Shown here: piece by piece, positions 44,095 through 52,143 of the stretch
Numbering within the stretch: the first letter of the stretch is position 1
How the letters are laid out: each line of letters begins with the position of its first letter
Assembly (NCBI RefSeq): GCF_000482245.1
Contig: NZ_AWNH01000078.1
Location: forward strand, 62,001-126,000
Direction: 5' to 3'
Length of the DNA: 64,000 nt
Source: Leptolyngbya sp. Heron Island J
GTDB taxonomy: Bacteria; Cyanobacteriota; Cyanobacteriia; Phormidesmidales; Phormidesmidaceae
Notes under the pieces: model-generated
What the model was told of the DNA's origin: nothing
What the model saw: only the letters and a program-made list of their open reading frames with translations
The model's database searches: none
Made by a program: the position numbers and the translations under genes

Positions 44095-46980
44095 TTACTT
44101 CACTCGGGCTCTAAATTTCACGTGGCCGTAGGCTCCGGTGGCGTCGGTGGTGGCATCGGGTAAATCGCCCAGGTTAACAACAACGGCACCGTTGGGGTTG
44201 GCATTGCTACCATTGCCGTCGCCGTCGCAGTCGATGTCGGGGAAGCTGTTGGCGGGGTCAACGCCAGGAGCGAAGTAAGTAGCACTATCGCCGTCGTTGG
44301 CTCCGGTATGGTAGTCGGTGGTGCCGTTGCGGTAGAGTTCGATGCTGAGGTCGGCTCCGCCAATGCCGCCGGTGGCTTGGGGGCTGTTGCCAGTGTAGGC
44401 GTTGGGGATAAAGGTGGTAAATGTGGGAACATAGTCGCAGAAGAGAACGCTTTCTGCGGTAGTGTTGCCAGAGGAGAGAAAGTAAATGGTGTATTCAATC
44501 TCATCGTTGGGCATGACATCGCCACCGTCGATGCCGCCTCGTAAACTAGTGTTTAGTGGCGTTGGCCATTGGTTAGTCTCACGCGGGTCAAAAGCCGGAT
44601 TGTTTTCGTCGTAAGCCGGATTATTAGGATCGCTCACGGGCGGAATAGTGTTGTCGTCGTAGGGGTAGACGATGTCATCTTGGTCGATGTAGATGGCAAG
44701 GTTATGGCCATTGGTGGTATTAGTATCATTGTTAAGGGCCGTAATCCGCTTAACGAGCAACACGTCAGGATCGCTCACGATAGGCATAGCGGTATCTAAA
44801 AAGATGTGTCCTGTGCTATCTGTATTAGTGACAGAAACTGGAATACGATCATCGTTATCTCCGGCACTGTCAGCAGTGCTATCAAACCCGGCAGAGTTGG
44901 TTTCAACAATTATGTAGTCACCCGCATCAACATTGGTGAAACTGAAGTTACCACTTCCGTTTGTGATTTGAGTATCCACTAAGGTACCGTCGCTGGGGTC
45001 ACCGTCGCCATTGGGATCGGTAAAGAGTTGCACAGTGACTGTATCAATGCCACTATCGGCATCATTTAGGTCGCCATCGTTATCGATATCTTCTCGCACT
45101 TGGCCACTAATAGTTTGGGTCGGAGCTGTACAAAATCGAAAAACCTGATCGATAGCGATCGCATGGTCGTCACTGATGCCTGTACCATCTCCATTGGGAA
45201 CTGGATTAGCATCGTCTGGACCATTGGAATAATCGAGTCTGAGGCTATTAACTGCTGCGGAGGTAGCCATCACCATATGCCCTCGCGAGTCAAGATGCGA
45301 CAAATTGTCATTGATGCCAGGACGATATGAGCCTTTAGCTGTTTGGCCAGTAATTGTCATGGTGCCAGCTGTTTCTGGCTGCACAGAAATGGGGACATCA
45401 CTACCATTTAAGCTGGCTGAGGCTGCGATTTCATCTTGGAAAGAACCACCTGGTTCTGGTACACCGCCACCAGCACCATAGCCCGTACCATCGACATCAA
45501 TGATTTGAAAGTCATCAATCACAATAGGTTTGGAAAACGTGAATACAAATGAAACTTCTTGATTGGAATTTTGGGCCGTCATGGCCCAGGTTAAATAACC
45601 CAAGCCATAAGCACCATCGGTACGAGTATAAATTGCACTCGCACCAAGATTACCTGTATCAATATTCTGATTGGATGGATCCAGTAGCTCAAGGGTGACA
45701 TCAACACCGCTCCCTGCCACATTCGTATAAGTATTAAAAGTATCATCGATATTCCAGACGGCACCGCCTGCACCCCAGGTAAAGTCATAGGTGCTACTAA
45801 GCGCACAAGAGAGTGGCGGTGGCGAGGGGAGTGGGGTGTTGCTATCGAGAAAGTCATTGCCTGTAACGTCAGCATTCGTGAGATTAACAGCGATACGATT
45901 GTTGTTGAAGCTGTCGCTGTCGTTGGTGCTGGTGTAGCCGTTGGGGTCGGTTTCGATAACAATGTAGTTGCCGGGAGCTAGATCTGTAAAACTATAGTTG
46001 CCGCTGCCGTCGGTGGTGGTGGTGGTTAGCTCGGTACTGCCAGTAGGATCGCCATCGCCTTCGGGATCGTCATAGAGGGCAACGGTAACGCCGCTAATGC
46101 CGCTGTCGGCATCGTTGAGGTCGCCGTCATTATCGGTGTCATTACGGACCTGGCCAGAAATACTGTATTCGACTGAAGCAGATGAGATCGCAACCGTTAA
46201 ACTATTCTCAGCTTCTCGCTCATTGTTAATCGGTGCACCTGCCGTATCACCATTGTCTGTACCCGAATTATCCTGAGTATACACATCATTTGTGCCTGTC
46301 ACATAGGTCTCATTCTGGCCATCTGTCGCCGCTGTATCCCCCAGGTTAACCGTTAAATCAAGACCGGCTGTCCCTGCCGTTACCGGTACCCGTACCGTAA
46401 TACTGCCTCCAGCCGGAATGGAACCATTATTGGCACTGACCACACCACTTAACAAATTACCAGTGGTATCACCCCCACCGGGCACCGTAACATTGTTGCC
46501 CGTCAGATCAACCGCAATCCCTGCCCCTGTTCCATCGGCATCATACTCAATAATCTGAATATTTCCTGCCTGAGTGCCATTGGTCACTGAAGCAGAGCCC
46601 GGAAGTACAAACTGGGTAGGATCGTTACCCACATTGGTGATTACAAAGTCTACATATACCGTATCGCCTTCATTGACGGTGCCGTCAGTGGGTTCGTTAT
46701 AACCATTGCTGACCACAGTGATACCTGCTACCTCAGCCACTTCCACCTGTACTTCATTGGAGATAATGGTCTGGGTGCTACTATCACTCGGATCAACAAA
46801 ACTACCTGTCGCCTGGTTCCGAATAATGGTCCCTGGGGCAGGACTATTGGCCCAGGCCATCATCCCCGGTGACAATACGCCTCCCGACAACAATATGGCG
46901 GCGATAATAGTCCGTGCCCGATTGGTTAACTGACGGCGGTTTGGTTTTGATTGATTGGGTGAAAGGCGACGGTTAGACAT
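44095..46980 (-). CDS. Exported protein with two SdrD_B domains and LVKRITALN module
   Basis: 961 residues from the ATG at 46978-46980; an in-frame extension to 47070 would run through a REP palindrome and is rejected. A signal peptide ends near residue 46. The N-terminal motif APGTIIRNQATGSFVDPSDS follows, then a DUF11-like region. SdrD_B domains lie at about 270-380 (SGQVRNDTDNDGDLNDADSG) and about 620-730 (SGQVREDIDNDGDLNDADSG); the two are close copies. Between them is a beta-rich unit with an EPGG loop. The C-terminal module starts near 735 (VLLVKRITALNND) and ends HVKFRARVK, with inserts absent from its siblings. The Asp-rich SdrD_B loops are likely Ca2+ sites. Confidence 0.87.
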   Translation of the reverse strand: MSNRRLSPNQSKPNRRQLTNRARTIIAAILLSGGVLSPGMMAWANSPAPGTIIRNQATGSFVDPSDSSTQTIISNEVQVEVAEVAGITVVSNGYNEPTDGTVNEGDTVYVDFVITNVGNDPTQFVLPGSASVTNGTQAGNIQIIEYDADGTGAGIAVDLTGNNVTVPGGGDTTGNLLSGVVSANNGSIPAGGSITVRVPVTAGTAGLDLTVNLGDTAATDGQNETYVTGTNDVYTQDNSGTDNGDTAGAPINNEREAENSLTVAISSASVEYSISGQVRNDTDNDGDLNDADSGISGVTVALYDDPEGDGDPTGSTELTTTTTDGSGNYSFTDLAPGNYIVIETDPNGYTSTNDSDSFNNNRIAVNLTNADVTGNDFLDSNTPLPSPPPLSCALSSTYDFTWGAGGAVWNIDDTFNTYTNVAGSGVDVTLELLDPSNQNIDTGNLGASAIYTRTDGAYGLGYLTWAMTAQNSNQEVSFVFTFSKPIVIDDFQIIDVDGTGYGAGGGVPEPGGSFQDEIAASASLNGSDVPISVQPETAGTMTITGQTAKGSYRPGINDNLSHLDSRGHMVMATSAAVNSLRLDYSNGPDDANPVPNGDGTGISDDHAIAIDQVFRFCTAPTQTISGQVREDIDNDGDLNDADSGIDTVTVQLFTDPNGDGDPSDGTLVDTQITNGSGNFSFTNVDAGDYIIVETNSAGFDSTADSAGDNDDRIPVSVTNTDSTGHIFLDTAMPIVSDPDVLLVKRITALNNDTNTTNGHNLAIYIDQDDIVYPYDDNTIPPVSDPNNPAYDENNPAFDPRETNQWPTPLNTSLRGGIDGGDVMPNDEIEYTIYFLSSGNTTAESVLFCDYVPTFTTFIPNAYTGNSPQATGGIGGADLSIELYRNGTTDYHTGANDGDSATYFAPGVDPANSFPDIDCDGDGNGSNANPNGAVVVNLGDLPDATTDATGAYGHVKFRARVK

Positions 46981-47046
46981 TTTCAATAACCAAATTTTGT
47001 GTAATACCGAAAATTGGAATTTTTTGTAATACGGATAATCGTCCTC

Positions 47047-47092
47047 GATCCCTTTGTAGAGACCTTCCATGGAAGGTCTCTACAAAGGGATC
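47047..47092. repeat. REP-like palindrome, copy 3, next to RAYT
   Basis: A perfect 46-bp palindrome, arm GATCCCTTTGTAGAGACCTT plus CCA. It lies 11 bases beyond the end of the decayed RAYT gene and just upstream of the 961-residue gene. Its inner 34 bases match the palindrome inside the RAYT frame. Confidence 0.85.
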
Positions 47093-47103
47093 GTTGGGGC
47101 GGA

Positions 47104-47709
47104 TTACGTTATTGGGGGAGATTTTATTGGGGGCAATAATTTGCGGGGATGATTGCGATCGCGTCCCCAATTGCTCGGATTTTTGACGATATATCGCCGA
47201 ATATAATCAATTGATCCATCGGCACGAATGATGTGTTCGTAGAATCGAGATTGCCATGCAAACCGAGAATACCCATTTTGGCGACACCATCGCGTTACCG
47301 AAGATTTATAGGACCGTACGATGGCACCTAAGGAACCTCGTTTTGGGGAAATCGCGGACATCTTCTGAGACAACGACGACCCCTCTTATAGAGACCTTCC
47401 ATGGAAGGTCTCTACAAGAGGATTATCCAAACGACGTTCAATTATCAAAATTCCGTGGAGGTGATTGGGCATCACTACGTATTCATCAATTCGCACATTC
47501 TCACAATGGTCAGGAATCTCTTGCCAACACCGTTTTGCCATATGACCAATAGCTGAAAATTCCATAACACCATCCACCACATCACCGAAAAAACACTCCC
47601 GTTTTTTGGTGCATAGGGTCAAAAAATAACCACCTGCTCGTCTATAGTCCCTCTGCGGTAAACGCATGGAGGTACCCTTAAATCTGTTGCGATAAGCCAT
47701 CGTTAACAT
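47104..47709 (-). pseudogene. RAYT (IS200/Y1-like transposase) interrupted by one stop
   Basis: Reading from the ATG at 47709 (GGAG 10-13 bases upstream) gives a protein of about 200 codons, normal for REP-associated tyrosine transposases. The N-terminal half has GGYFLTLCTKKR and the HUH motif VVMPNHLHGILI. A TAA at 47386-47388 ends it after VETFHGRSL. The same frame then continues with KRGSLGAIVRSYKSSVTRW and the Tyr-bearing helix FYEHIIRADGSIDYIRRYI. The stop therefore separates the HUH His pair from the catalytic Tyr. No frameshift is present; a G instead of A at 47388 would restore CAA (Gln). It begins 10 bases after the end of the 719-residue gene. Confidence 0.85.
47382..47421. repeat. 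REP-like palindrome, copy 4, inside the RAYT frame
   Basis: A 40-bp palindrome with a single unpaired position (47388 against 47415). In the RAYT frame it encodes VETFHGRSL followed by the stop. The unpaired base is exactly the one that makes the TAA codon, so the ancestral perfect palindrome would have encoded Gln there. Confidence 0.85.
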
Positions 47710-47721
47710 CACCAGGATCTC

Positions 47722-49881
47722 CTATTCATCTACCTTGGTGGTAAACCGGAAATACCCATAGGCATTGGTGGGAGTCCCTTGTCCAGTGGTATTCGGGAAT
47801 GTGGTCAACCCGGTTGGATCGCCCATTGTTCCCGTAATATCCACCACTACCACTTCATCGCTAGCGCTAGTACTAAACGAAGAGAGATTACAGGTGGGTG
47901 TGGCAGGCAAACTACCCACCGTAGTCACCTCGCCTCGGTCGGTGACCGTATCACTATCGTCAGTGAGATTATAAGTGGTGCCGTCAATGACTAGTTCAAT
48001 ATCGTTGCCGCCATACTGGCCAGTAACAAAACTCTGGTTCGGCTGAATCCAGTCACAGATTCTCACATCTTCCGCTGCACCACTACCGGCATTGAGAAAG
48101 TATACGGTGTATTCAATCTCATCACCGGGCTGGACTAATCCGGCATCGAGTTCGCCCACTAAATAGCTAGCGGGCCAGTTGTCCTCATCATCGGCAGAAT
48201 CTGCAACACCATCGTTGACAACCTGAGTTAAGTCTTTACTGTCATTGGGATTGGTAGTTTGCCCATTGATGGCGGTGATCCGTTTAACAAGAGCAACATC
48301 TGGATTAGTTGATACTGCTGTCGTCGTAATCTCAGTACAATCATCCACCGCTGACGTATTCGGATCATCCGACACCCCCGAACTCGCATTACCACTGGTC
48401 GCCCCGGTATAATCAATGCTCGCCTGGTTACAGACCAATTTCCCTGCTGTCGCCGTCACCGTGACATCAAAAGTCATCGTCACCGTGTCGTTAATATTGA
48501 CCTGGCCTCCCTGGGATGCATTAGCCCCCGTCCCCACACGAAAGATCACATTACTGCCATCAAATTCTGCTTCGTCATCCCCGGAACCATCAGTTTTCGC
48601 TACACCATCAATCTTCAAAGACCCCGGCACAAACGTAGTTCCCGTCGGAATCACATCCGTAATCACCGTATTTGTCGAATTGTCATTCCCCGTATTGGTC
48701 ACCGAAATGGTGTAAGGAATCGTATCGCCTGTGGTGTAGGTTGTTGAGGGAGTTGTTTTCTCAAACTGGGTGACCAAATTGGGCTCAAACACCTCTACAG
48801 CAAAGAAATAGGCGAGAGGCCAGATACCATCTCCTTGACTTTCCAAGGTCAGGTCAATACTTGTGGCATTGGTGGGAATTACATTATTCGTTTGGTTCCA
48901 GATAGTCAGATCTAAATAGTCAATATCAATGACCATGTTGTAGGGGTCATTGGGTGTTCGGCTAGTCACATGGTTACCAAATTTAGAAATTGTGCCATTG
49001 AAGAAGTTATTGGCTGGATTCAGGCTATCCGTAATATTGTTATTGTTGATATGCAGGAAATCATCTGGTTGGTCCACTTCTCCATCGTTAGCAATGGCCC
49101 CCATAAAAACATCAAACCCTGTAGTAGGTGGAGTTCGGATACCAGTTAAGTTAAATGTTTTAAGACTGTTACGAACCACATCGTGGCCATCGAAGATAGA
49201 GATATTACGAATTGGTTGAGTCGAATCTTCATAGACCACTACAATCGACCAACCTGCATTGGGATAGGTAAATCCTGCACCCGTATTAGATTGAACGTTT
49301 GCGACAGTATAGGTGCCATTACCTGCCCCTTGAATTAGAGTTGTAATGTCTGCGAAAGCTCCGTAGGTATGCCAGGAACCAAAGTCAGTACGGTCGTTTT
49401 GATCGTCAGCAGTAATTGTTTGATAGGTACCGCTGCCCGGAATTTGCAGTGACACTTGGTTAAATCCAGTCAGGTTAGGAGCTGGAGTTGTGCCAAATCC
49501 TTCCAGACTGCCCCCCCAATAAAGAGCTGCAAACTGCACATTTGCCCCGGCAGGAATATTTAATTCTGCTGCACTGGAGTTAAAGGTGGAGCCATCACTA
49601 TCGATATCCAGCATCTGCATGGCTAAGCCGCCATTATTATTGCCTCTTGTGCCGTTGGCAAGACCATCTGCACAGGAGGCGTTGTTGCGATCGCAAATCA
49701 CTGACGCATTACCAATCGCTTCAATATTGCCAGATAGTTCAGTATTGTAGCGCTGGTCAAAATTAGGATACGAGGGATTGGCAAGGGCCTGGGTAGGAAT
49801 ACCGACCATCAGGAGAAATAAACTAGCGGTTAATTTAACCGAAGTGCTTGGGGATAAATATTTAAGAACAGAATGTGACAT
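47722..49881 (-). CDS. Exported DUF3344/DUF11 protein with LVKRITAIN module
   Basis: 719 residues. A signal peptide spans 1-~35 (LTASLFLLMVGIPTQALA). A DUF3344-like domain spans about 45-345 (FAALYWGGSLEGFG, GWSIVVVYEDSTQPIRNI). A DUF11 domain is at about 350-490 (FEKTTPSTTYTTGDTIPY). The C-terminal module begins near 525 (VALVKRITAING) and continues WPASYLVGELDAG, PGDEIEYTVYFLN and VRICDWIQPNQ to FRFTTKVDE. Its 3' DNA is very similar to that of the 1,897-residue gene, a sign of duplication or gene conversion. Confidence 0.87.
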   Translation of the reverse strand: MSHSVLKYLSPSTSVKLTASLFLLMVGIPTQALANPSYPNFDQRYNTELSGNIEAIGNASVICDRNNASCADGLANGTRGNNNGGLAMQMLDIDSDGSTFNSSAAELNIPAGANVQFAALYWGGSLEGFGTTPAPNLTGFNQVSLQIPGSGTYQTITADDQNDRTDFGSWHTYGAFADITTLIQGAGNGTYTVANVQSNTGAGFTYPNAGWSIVVVYEDSTQPIRNISIFDGHDVVRNSLKTFNLTGIRTPPTTGFDVFMGAIANDGEVDQPDDFLHINNNNITDSLNPANNFFNGTISKFGNHVTSRTPNDPYNMVIDIDYLDLTIWNQTNNVIPTNATSIDLTLESQGDGIWPLAYFFAVEVFEPNLVTQFEKTTPSTTYTTGDTIPYTISVTNTGNDNSTNTVITDVIPTGTTFVPGSLKIDGVAKTDGSGDDEAEFDGSNVIFRVGTGANASQGGQVNINDTVTMTFDVTVTATAGKLVCNQASIDYTGATSGNASSGVSDDPNTSAVDDCTEITTTAVSTNPDVALVKRITAINGQTTNPNDSKDLTQVVNDGVADSADDEDNWPASYLVGELDAGLVQPGDEIEYTVYFLNAGSGAAEDVRICDWIQPNQSFVTGQYGGNDIELVIDGTTYNLTDDSDTVTDRGEVTTVGSLPATPTCNLSSFSTSASDEVVVVDITGTMGDPTGLTTFPNTTGQGTPTNAYGYFRFTTKVDE

Positions 49882-50022: not shown

Positions 50023-52143
50023 CTACTGCTCTATTTGCAGATCATTCTCTTGATCCACAAAGGTAATTTCCACACCTCGGACATCGCTGAACACAAACTC
50101 CACTCGGCGATTGCGTGCATAGTTCACCCGGTCAATTTCCTCCACTAACAGTTCAGTCTCTCCAAAAGAACGAATGGTCATCCGTTCGGGGGCAATGCCT
50201 TTTTGCATCAGGTACCGTCGGGCATTATTGGCCCGACGCCGGGCCAGGTCCTGGTTATAGGCAACGCTCGCCCGAGAATCAGTATGCCCGTGCAAATCAA
50301 CAACTATCGATGGATATTGCTCCATTACCTCAGCAATTTGGTCCAAAATCAGAGCACTATCTGGATTAATAAAGTCCTCGTCGAGACCGTAATGGACATT
50401 GCGTGGTACTTGGAGCCTTAGGATTTCGGTCTCGGGAGCAAAGGAGATAGGGGGAGTGGTGAGAGGGAGTGGGGGAGTGGTGCATTCAACACCCGCAACA
50501 GAGTCTGACACCATGCGGTTGGGTTGAGTGGTGCTGGTTTCTCCTAGGGCAACAATGGTGGTGTTGAGGGCTGGTTCAGAAGTGCCATAGGTTGGATCGG
50601 TGGAAATACCACTGATCACATCACCCGGTTGTAAATCTTTTGATGCATACGTAAATAGCCCATCCTCATTAACATTGACCGTGGCCAACGGTGTTGTCAG
50701 AGGTCCATATTCACCGGTATTGCCTTGGGTGAGATAAAGCTGTACTGTAGAACCCACATCAGCTTTGCCTTGGATCACGACTGAATTATTGATGGCAAAG
50801 AACTCAGGACTATCAAACTGCGGGGGATTGATAGCACTATTACCCGTATCTCGCCGCCGCTGATTGGAATCTCGTAGTGGGTTGGGGCCATCTCCCCGCT
50901 GAAAGTCTTGCACACCCCGATTACGACGGGTATTGAGGTCAATACTCAAACCTTCCAGATTTTCAAAACGATTGTTCTCGATCACATTACGCTGGCTGTG
51001 GGTAGTGCCCCCTTGGCTGAAGGCAGTAACCACCACACCAGGCCCTTTTTGGTTCGCGATTTGATTATCCACCACCCGGTGATCATTACCCATCAGGTAA
51101 ATAGCCGCCCTTCTCAGGCGTTGACCATTAAAGCGAATGTCGTTGTTGCTAATCTCTACGGCACCCTGGGGTTTAAACAGGAAGATGCCACTACCGTCAT
51201 TGCCACACATCAAGTTGCCACTAATGAGACTATTATCAATGTGACCCTCCAAACGTATGGCATCGGGCATGCCAGCTAAGCCATTGTTGACAATCAGGTT
51301 TTCAACAACTTCTAAATTCTCAGCCCGAGCCCCTGTGATCACTCCACTGCCATCATGGTAGGAAATACGATTATGGCGCAGTTTTACCCCCTGGCTGTTA
51401 AATACGGATACCCCAAAGGCAGAGGGAGTTTCTGGTATCGTGTCATCCGTAGGAATACCAATCCAATTTTGCTCAATGACAATTCCTTGGGGAGGATGAT
51501 TCTCCTCATAAAAAGAGAAATTACTAGCTGGAATATACTGCTGGCTAATATCCGGTGGTGGTAGTTCGTGGGCAATAAAAATATCAGCCGGAGGTGTAGA
51601 TTCGGTAGCCCTGTGCTGTGAGGTAAACCCATACAAACTGAGGCCACGAATGGTGACATCGTCTGCAACGATAGTTAAGCCTCGAAACACCTCAGCATTG
51701 TCAGCCGGAGTAATCTCCACCACAGGGATTGCCACTAAGATTTCTGCTGTGGCTGATTTGGTAGCATCATATCCGGCTTGGGTAGTCCCATCGACCACCA
51801 GGCCAGGTTGTGCTAAAACCGGCAGTAGCGACTGTAGCTCAATGGTGGTATTGCCAGCGGGTAGATCAAATCCAATGACTGATTTACTTGAACTGGGGTT
51901 AACTTGCTGTTGCTCTGAGGAGCTGAGGTCAGTTAGGGGAAGGGTGCCGTTGGTGATTGCGATCGCTTCTCGCAACGTCAGCTGCTCATCGGGAGTTATT
52001 GGCCCATCCTGAGAGCTATTAACCGTAGCCTGTACTATAGGAAAATCAAATGCGACTGAAGTTTCAGCAACGGTAGTAGTTGCTGTCACTGCTGTTAACA
52101 GAAAAGCAGTGGCTAAGGTACGAATAGATTGGCGATAGGTCAT
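50023..52143 (-). CDS. Exported beta-helix protein with OmpA domain
   Basis: 706 residues. A signal peptide spans 1-26. A right-handed parallel beta-helix spans about 100-430 (FRGLTIVADDVTIRGLSLYG, IRLEGHIDNSLISGNLMCG, HRVVDNQIANQKGPG). A short Ig-like segment follows (VIQGKADVGSTVQLYLTQG). The C-terminal OmpA domain at about 575-690 has VDLHGHTDSRASVAYNQDLA and RRRANNARRYL, including the Asp and Arg that bind diaminopimelate in peptidoglycan. It is the probable cell-wall anchor of the cluster, with the beta-helix facing surface partners; that link is inference. Confidence 0.88.
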   Translation of the reverse strand: MTYRQSIRTLATAFLLTAVTATTTVAETSVAFDFPIVQATVNSSQDGPITPDEQLTLREAIAITNGTLPLTDLSSSEQQQVNPSSSKSVIGFDLPAGNTTIELQSLLPVLAQPGLVVDGTTQAGYDATKSATAEILVAIPVVEITPADNAEVFRGLTIVADDVTIRGLSLYGFTSQHRATESTPPADIFIAHELPPPDISQQYIPASNFSFYEENHPPQGIVIEQNWIGIPTDDTIPETPSAFGVSVFNSQGVKLRHNRISYHDGSGVITGARAENLEVVENLIVNNGLAGMPDAIRLEGHIDNSLISGNLMCGNDGSGIFLFKPQGAVEISNNDIRFNGQRLRRAAIYLMGNDHRVVDNQIANQKGPGVVVTAFSQGGTTHSQRNVIENNRFENLEGLSIDLNTRRNRGVQDFQRGDGPNPLRDSNQRRRDTGNSAINPPQFDSPEFFAINNSVVIQGKADVGSTVQLYLTQGNTGEYGPLTTPLATVNVNEDGLFTYASKDLQPGDVISGISTDPTYGTSEPALNTTIVALGETSTTQPNRMVSDSVAGVECTTPPLPLTTPPISFAPETEILRLQVPRNVHYGLDEDFINPDSALILDQIAEVMEQYPSIVVDLHGHTDSRASVAYNQDLARRRANNARRYLMQKGIAPERMTIRSFGETELLVEEIDRVNYARNRRVEFVFSDVRGVEITFVDQENDLQIEQ

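Follow-up and report, generated by a model that had tools for sequence, protein, structure and literature searches.

Why does a RAYT transposase gene carry, within its own reading frame, a palindrome of the REP kind, does the gene survive a stop codon that sits in that palindrome, and what keeps the arms of such palindromes complementary? These questions are raised by a locus in the window, which is the whole stretch of DNA analysed here, 64,000 nucleotides of Leptolyngbya sp. Heron Island J (contig NZ_AWNH01000078.1, positions 62,001 to 126,000 of the forward strand).

The RAYT gene and its family

The frame of the gene and its recognizable motifs are located as follows.

47104–47709, minus strand: RAYT gene (TnpAREP subclass 2.4 type), ATG at 47709 to TAA at 47106–47104, with one internal stop
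47455–47466, minus strand: HUH motif NHLH
47242–47256, minus strand: WQSRF, corresponding to W94/Q95 in the GTAG-contact region of the E. coli protein by a weak sequence alignment to 4er8; absent from the truncated product
47176–47193, minus strand: YIVKNP with the catalytic Tyr codon at 47193–47191; absent from the truncated product

Read through the stop, the frame matches the NCBIfam model REP_Tyr_transpos over residues 20–178 (E 4.6e-14) at 52.5 bits, against a curated cut-off of 80; its match to Pfam Y1_Tnp, of 21.2 bits, likewise falls short of the cut-off of 23. All 43 aligned homologues match REP_Tyr_transpos too. A fold search was employed because the sequence similarity to 4er8, a RAYT bound to a REP hairpin, is only weak (E 0.46 in a PDB sequence search, and not the top hit), and its top PDB match was 4er8. 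The naming of the gene as a RAYT in a preliminary description, made from the letters alone, is thus borne out by the family match and the fold. The protein of 4er8, E. coli TnpAREP (RAYT group 2), resembles the one described here in fold and in aligned W, Q, E, H and R residues, but it has no insertion loop, and E. coli REPs need a bulge for activity whereas those found here are perfect palindromes (PMC8266576, accessible text).

According to the accessible parts of Quentin et al. 2018 (PMC6006769), TnpAREP subclass 2.4, equivalent to RAYT group 4, has the motifs NH[IFV]H, WQ and YIxNNP and REPs of the form GT[AG]G...C[TC]AC, and an in-frame double-foot REP between HUH and Y is a hallmark of it. 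The gene resembles this subclass in its HUH, WQ and YI..NP motifs, in an insertion, variable in length and sequence, that follows the HUH strand and precedes the next helix, in its GTAG...CTAC REPs, one of which is a double-foot REP beside the gene, and in having another in frame between HUH and Y. It differs in that the HUH and YI motifs of the window copy (NHLH, WQ, YIVKNP) are each one letter off the consensus, in that the stop keeps HUH and Y from standing in one frame, and in additional self-complementary arms that go unmentioned in those parts of the paper. The copies in the related genomes G004 (NHVH, WQ, YIVNNP) and G002 (NHVH, WQ, YIRNNP) fit the subclass motifs, and in both of them, as in the sister genome G005 (Adonisia turfae CCMR0081), HUH and Y are present in one frame. 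G000, the window's genome, belongs with G002, G004 and G005 to one genus, for which the name Adonisia is taken from G005.

The gene is flanked by two large surface-type protein genes on the same strand, with DUF11 upstream and with SdrD_B and SpaA downstream, and no REP was found between the upstream gene and the RAYT start. A mobile multi-copy element of the IS200/IS605 kind was ruled out, since G000 holds a single copy of the gene and the upstream neighbour is constant in G005, G004, G002 and G022, the last being from another genus of the same family. GTAG-tagged REPs and REPtrons (Di Nocera et al. 2013, PMC3733652) share with this locus the GTAG foot, cyanobacterial families and the presence of REPs within coding genes, although the accessible text makes no mention of an outer-arm pattern. 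Rickettsia palindromic elements are likewise in-frame palindromes in protein genes, but they have a CGTC foot, lack a dedicated transposase and show an arm identity that is said to fade with time (PMC3733652 and PMC6649704, accessible parts); they were ruled out here, where the foot is GTAG/CTAC. The window's genome also contains another RAYT-like frame (L070:1853-2485; 211 aa, 37% identical), which is free of stops and has no palindrome with arms of at least 10 bp in or near it; its protein might substitute for the broken copy.

Two REPs at one gene

Two copies of the same unit are found at the gene, one within the frame and one directly behind it.

47382–47421, no strand assigned: in-frame REP, a 28-bp double-foot unit (47388–47415) with 6-bp self-complementary outer arms
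47046–47093, no strand assigned: second REP directly 3′ of the RAYT gene, an identical 28-bp unit (47056–47083) with 10-bp outer arms

The first is a loopless palindrome of 40 bp, the 20-bp arms of which are 95% complementary, with the sole mismatch between 47388 (A) and 47415 (C), and the second has 24-bp arms that are 100% complementary. As had been described, the RAYT frame crosses the 40-bp palindrome and reads it as VETFHGRSL, and the VETxHGxSL-type segments mentioned there for similar proteins do exist in relatives (VETFHGRSL, VETFHGTSL). The proposal that the palindrome is of the cognate REP kind is upheld as well. The 26-bp core occurs exactly only at these two REPs in the 8.06-Mb genome, and a looser pattern (at most three mismatches) finds 28 units in G000 when read as such and 0 when reversed. 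Folded as RNA, the internal unit reaches −33.8 kcal/mol (z −6.57), a value that none of 200 shuffles equalled. For the surface-protein gene downstream, the longest ORF call (44095–47070) begins within the 3′ REP, but the gene more plausibly starts near 46980 (MSNRRLSPNQ).

The internal stop and the truncated product

Two further features concern the fate of the protein.

47386–47388, minus strand: internal TAA, codon 108, in which 47388 is the mismatched palindrome base
47104–47373, minus strand: putative restart frame from TTG at 47373, 89 aa, comprising the Tyr half, with an SD-like GAGG eight bases upstream

This TAA, made by the unpaired base as the preliminary description had it, is the only internal stop of the frame and falls between HUH and the Tyr. 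In A. turfae CCMR0081 the frame is open at codon 108 and the palindrome is perfect. An AlphaFold2 model of the sister protein, built on an alignment of 43 sequences, in which the sister protein was joined by 42 others hand-picked from 57 candidate frames, has a mean pLDDT of 86.6; residues 103–110, which fall below 50, lie inside the REP-coded stretch 101–114 between the HUH strand and the next helix. In this model the stop would delete the helices 116–124 and 131–148, the strand 161–165 and the Tyr helix 168–180.

The GTAG foot is contacted in E. coli TnpAREP by W94, Q95, E100, H101 and R104 (Quentin et al., PMC6006769, accessible text), and K82 touches the REP stem (PMC8266576, likewise). 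The W, Q, E, H and R of the RAYT gene align with these GTAG contacts, by a weak sequence match to 4er8, and all of them come past the stop; the position of K82, like the GTAG contacts, comes after HUH. Since the counterparts of the GTAG contacts and of K82 lie beyond the stop and the helices are lost with them, a short product that binds DNA without cleaving it, as suggested earlier, is rejected as the likely state.

The RAYT genes of G000 and G005 differ in seven codons (four silent differences, one stop and two amino-acid changes), and at both amino-acid changes G000 keeps the residue of G004. To judge from this comparison, the stop, one transition in the 3′ foot of the REP, is most likely a recent single-base allele, or else an error, while the window copy as a whole is most likely a young loss-of-function allele. 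An error of sequencing or assembly at the hairpin would leave the gene intact, and it would fit a change of one base only, located in a foot of a perfect hairpin and read in one draft assembly of 119 contigs; it nevertheless appears rather unlikely, because the change is a plain substitution and the remainder of the gene reads cleanly. The gene might also still work as two products, an HUH half and a Tyr half restarted at TTG 47373, for there is a start codon with the SD-like GAGG 12 bases past the stop and the gene has few changes apart from it. The sister with its open frame, however, has the same start and the same GAGG, both of which are therefore considered incidental, and the split would cut what is predicted to be one compact fold, so that a working pair of products is hardly credible. 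Several homologues elsewhere likewise contain internal stops (L161, L175, L176 and L179).

Orthologues and a probable recent exchange

The in-frame palindrome recurs in relatives. The RAYT of G004 is 78% identical over residues 1–98, with an open frame of 238 aa, and that of G002 is 68% identical over residues 2–97, with an open frame of 245 aa; both have an in-frame palindrome at the equivalent place and another at or just past the gene end. In G022 an in-frame palindrome is also found there, starting in the same codon phase (VET), and its second half is read in another phase because the unit is 29 nt long. The presence of the palindrome in the frames of G005, G004, G002 and G022 means that it is no late insertion confined to the window strain, which was the outcome that an alignment of homologues might have given against the preliminary description.

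Between G000 and G005, identity in 200-base bins is 97–100% over 46600–47800, with the RAYT gene in the middle of this tract, and falls to 82–90% over 46000–46600 and to 85–94% over 47800–48800. Other nearby bins are high too (99% at 49000–49800 and 98% at 50800–51200), and the region is therefore a mosaic. Elsewhere, G000 and G005 share 74–88% identity in their main aligned blocks at five loci, and G004 and G005, which are 96–98% identical at three other loci, are only 77–84% identical at the RAYT locus. Judged by these identities, a recent exchange of the RAYT tract between the lineages of G000 and G005, in either direction, is probable. The stop would be younger than the exchange, or an error.

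Palindromes in the linkers of RAYT homologues

A scan of 142 loci gave 100 distinct frames in which, as a motif filter required, HUH is followed by Y..NP; the remainder were duplicates or lacked such an open frame, and broken homologues are under-counted, because the filter demands an open frame. A palindrome in the linker between HUH and Y, with arms of at least 12 bp and one mismatch allowed, occurs in 54 of these frames, and 46 have none of at least 12 bp, some of them showing eroded ones. The density of double-foot units was determined at 65 of the 79 loci L074–L152 of the named-genome collection, where 28 units lie in 17,628 bp of linker, 5 in the remaining 23,943 bp of RAYT frame and 7 in 386,754 bp of flank beyond 500 bp, which amounts to an approximately 88-fold higher density in linkers than in flanking DNA. 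Among the other ORFs of at least 150 aa at these loci, 6 of 248 contain a double-foot unit. An in-frame REP in a RAYT is a known feature, and the one described here confirms and widens this published oddity.

The 38 linker units outside Adonisia are read in two ways, 26 with a GTA codon and 12 as xGT AGx, and none stands in the phase that would read TAG, as the open frame demands. At 16 loci with both internal and flanking units, stem agreement is 0.84 within a locus and 0.52 between loci, a comparison that favours the former, since the within-locus value is that of the best-matching flank and the between-locus value is a mean. Internal and flanking stems are identical at 9 of the 16 loci, and they differ at L161 (0.1), L081 (0.5), and L074 and L121 (0.6).

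Outer arms of double-foot REPs

In Adonisia, double-foot REPs extend past the GTAG/CTAC feet into additional self-complementary arms that differ by site and species. This was examined at 30 non-redundant sites, taken from loci listed with few unit mismatches and not picked by their arms, after removal of six orthologous duplicates and with the duplicates L005, L184, L186, L187 and L197 left out. Arms of at least 3 bp are found at 20 of the 30 sites (7.8% in mispaired flanks) and of at least 5 bp at 14 (0.9% in mispaired flanks), and the other 10 sites have arms of 0–1 bp; in a permutation test for arms of at least 3 bp, 0 of 20,000 permutations reached 20 sites, the best reaching 11. Outside Adonisia the effect is there near RAYT genes but weaker, with arms of at least 3 bp in 10 of 68 units (mispaired 3.3%) and of at least 5 bp in 6 (mispaired 0.4%), and 28 of the 38 linker units there have arms of 0 bp. 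A second, asymmetric REP type (type B, GTACAGAC...GTCTCTCC and similar) is dispersed in the genome (L006, L007, L009, L014 and L017). Its arms measure 0–1 bp in 12 of the 13 units examined and 3 bp in the single fully symmetric unit; because those 12 have mismatched ends, this type serves as a partial control only.

For the comparison of arms between orthologues, 14 site groups were entered and the 13 with at least two genomes were scored; at S188 the unit was scored in one genome only, the G004 copy being eroded, and at S199 the G000 copy was read from the alignment. In 8 of the 13 groups, including both REPs of the RAYT gene, both arms have changed and pairing is kept, although S209, one of the eight, rests on arms of 3–4 bp. 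The arms of the internal RAYT REP, for example, are CCTCTT/AAGAGG in G000 and G005, CGATTTT/AAAATCG in G004 and CGTCAG/CTGACG in G002. One-sided loss or shortening was seen at S190, S203 (in G004), S206 and S208 (in G000), the arms of S191 are unchanged, and S202 is armless in three genomes. Four individual cases are of particular form. At L199, compared with G005, 2 bp are missing from both arms in G004, and G000 has other arms; at L201 one base pair has been exchanged as a pair; L196 in G004 (1489–1555) consists of the left flank, the REP, the inverted left flank, half a REP and the right flank; and at the orthologous site L207 (G005)/L246 (G004) the segment between two CCATGG palindromes is inverted in one genome relative to the other, with a single mismatch over 28 bases. 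The two-sided changes together with the cases at L199, L201, L196 and L207 are as expected from fold-back template switching, and the paired arm changes, as compared between genomes, suggest that this process has acted.

How the REP and its arms may be explained

The account that we favour, and regard as likely, combines a RAYT of subclass 2.4, a tolerated in-frame REP, a young loss-of-function allele and arms kept by template switching. The gene would be a chromosomal RAYT kept at one place between two surface-protein genes, with a cognate-type double-foot REP placed in frame in a presumably disordered, insertion-tolerant loop that separates the HUH strand from the helix after it. By analogy with its family, the intact RAYT presumably performs the reactions of E. 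coli TnpAREP, cutting and joining REP hairpins in single-stranded DNA, and the REP within the gene is most likely a passenger that is tolerated. The arms would be kept complementary outside the GTAG/CTAC feet by fold-back template switching from one to the other, which, within the gene, would change the codons on both sides of the unit together. The one-sided losses and shortenings of arms, and the many linker units outside Adonisia that have none, count against this part of the account. A more extended version, which is offered tentatively, holds that the double-foot REPs of Adonisia, the one within the RAYT frame among them, seed repeated fold-back template switching, in which arms, once the REP has inserted, grow outward into local sequence and then copy each other. 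Perfect arms specific to each site would result, the protein loop would be rewritten on both sides at once, and long arms would put the GTAG foot in duplex and may lock the REP against the transposase. Confidence in this version is held slightly lower because S209 is weak and because clean empty sites are lacking: none was found among the sites compared, and the partly empty L198 (G004) and L196 (G005) are remnants that may be read either way.

Two other explanations of the same arms have to be considered. The internal REP may be under selection because the gene is regulated through its hairpin, formed either in the mRNA or in single-stranded DNA to which the RAYT binds, in which case the paired arm changes would be compensatory mutations. 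This would agree with a hairpin that is stable in each of four orthologues, where none of 200 shuffles did as well, with a unit at the equivalent place in G022 and in every one of the four congeneric copies examined, and with the strong excess of units in linkers. The REP is dispensable, however, in the 46 of 100 homologous frames that have no linker palindrome of that length, symmetric arms occur equally at dispersed sites, and the 2-bp length change in two arms, the half-REP footprint and the inversion are unusual for independent compensatory substitutions; selection on the hairpin is accordingly judged unlikely. The preliminary description had called the palindrome tolerated and perhaps functional, and the first part stands, as relatives have one in frame there, while a function would be putative. 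The outer arms might instead be the target and not a later product, if REPs insert into pre-existing palindromes or hairpin loops, and this would accord with arms that are specific to each site and with the action of RAYTs on single-stranded, folded DNA (PMC8266576, accessible text). Yet arms at orthologous sites change in place and remain paired, no spacer separates arm from foot, and S202 and most linker units outside Adonisia have no arms at all, which leaves insertion into such targets very improbable.

Template switching with its coding effect is already known elsewhere, and what is possibly new in the favoured account is the behaviour of arms at REPs. A linked coding effect is known from genes of S. 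cerevisiae (PMC8604942), and coding palindromes with arms made alike by copying are known from Nematomorpha mitochondria (PMC6649704). As far as the accessible parts of these papers go, both resemble the present case in that the arms of coding inverted repeats are equalised by copying, with linked amino-acid changes, but no mobile element is involved, whereas here the REP would be the seed and dispersed REPs are affected too. A literature search, beyond the reach of which lay most subscription journals, returned no paper linking REPs with template switching or quasipalindromes. If the template-switching reading is true, the arm pattern is a natural, countable record of this process at bacterial hairpins, both within a coding gene and elsewhere. 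Coding palindromes with paired changes should then be tested before compensatory selection is invoked for them, and there would be a hint at how REPs may become immobile.

Dispersed units and other growth of the linker

Counts of dispersed units, obtained with one pattern (at most three mismatches) in genomes that differ in completeness, are 69 in G005, 91 in G004 and 36 in G002, beside those given above for G000; elsewhere they are 46 in G007, 38 in G022, 12 in G003, 3 in G001, 1 each in G013, G018 and G006, and 0 in G008 and G009. A dose relation between RAYT and REPs was sought in these 13 genomes and not found, and in G007 the best RAYT match is 36% identical, yet the related units are many. 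The action of the RAYT on dispersed units therefore stays putative, because the exact REP variant is undispersed and G007 is rich in units. In addition to REPs, the RAYT linker contains in-frame tandem repeats, of 18-bp units in G004 (L054:1637-1692) and of 24-bp units in G022 (L056:1553-1744), and the loop thus grows in more than one way.
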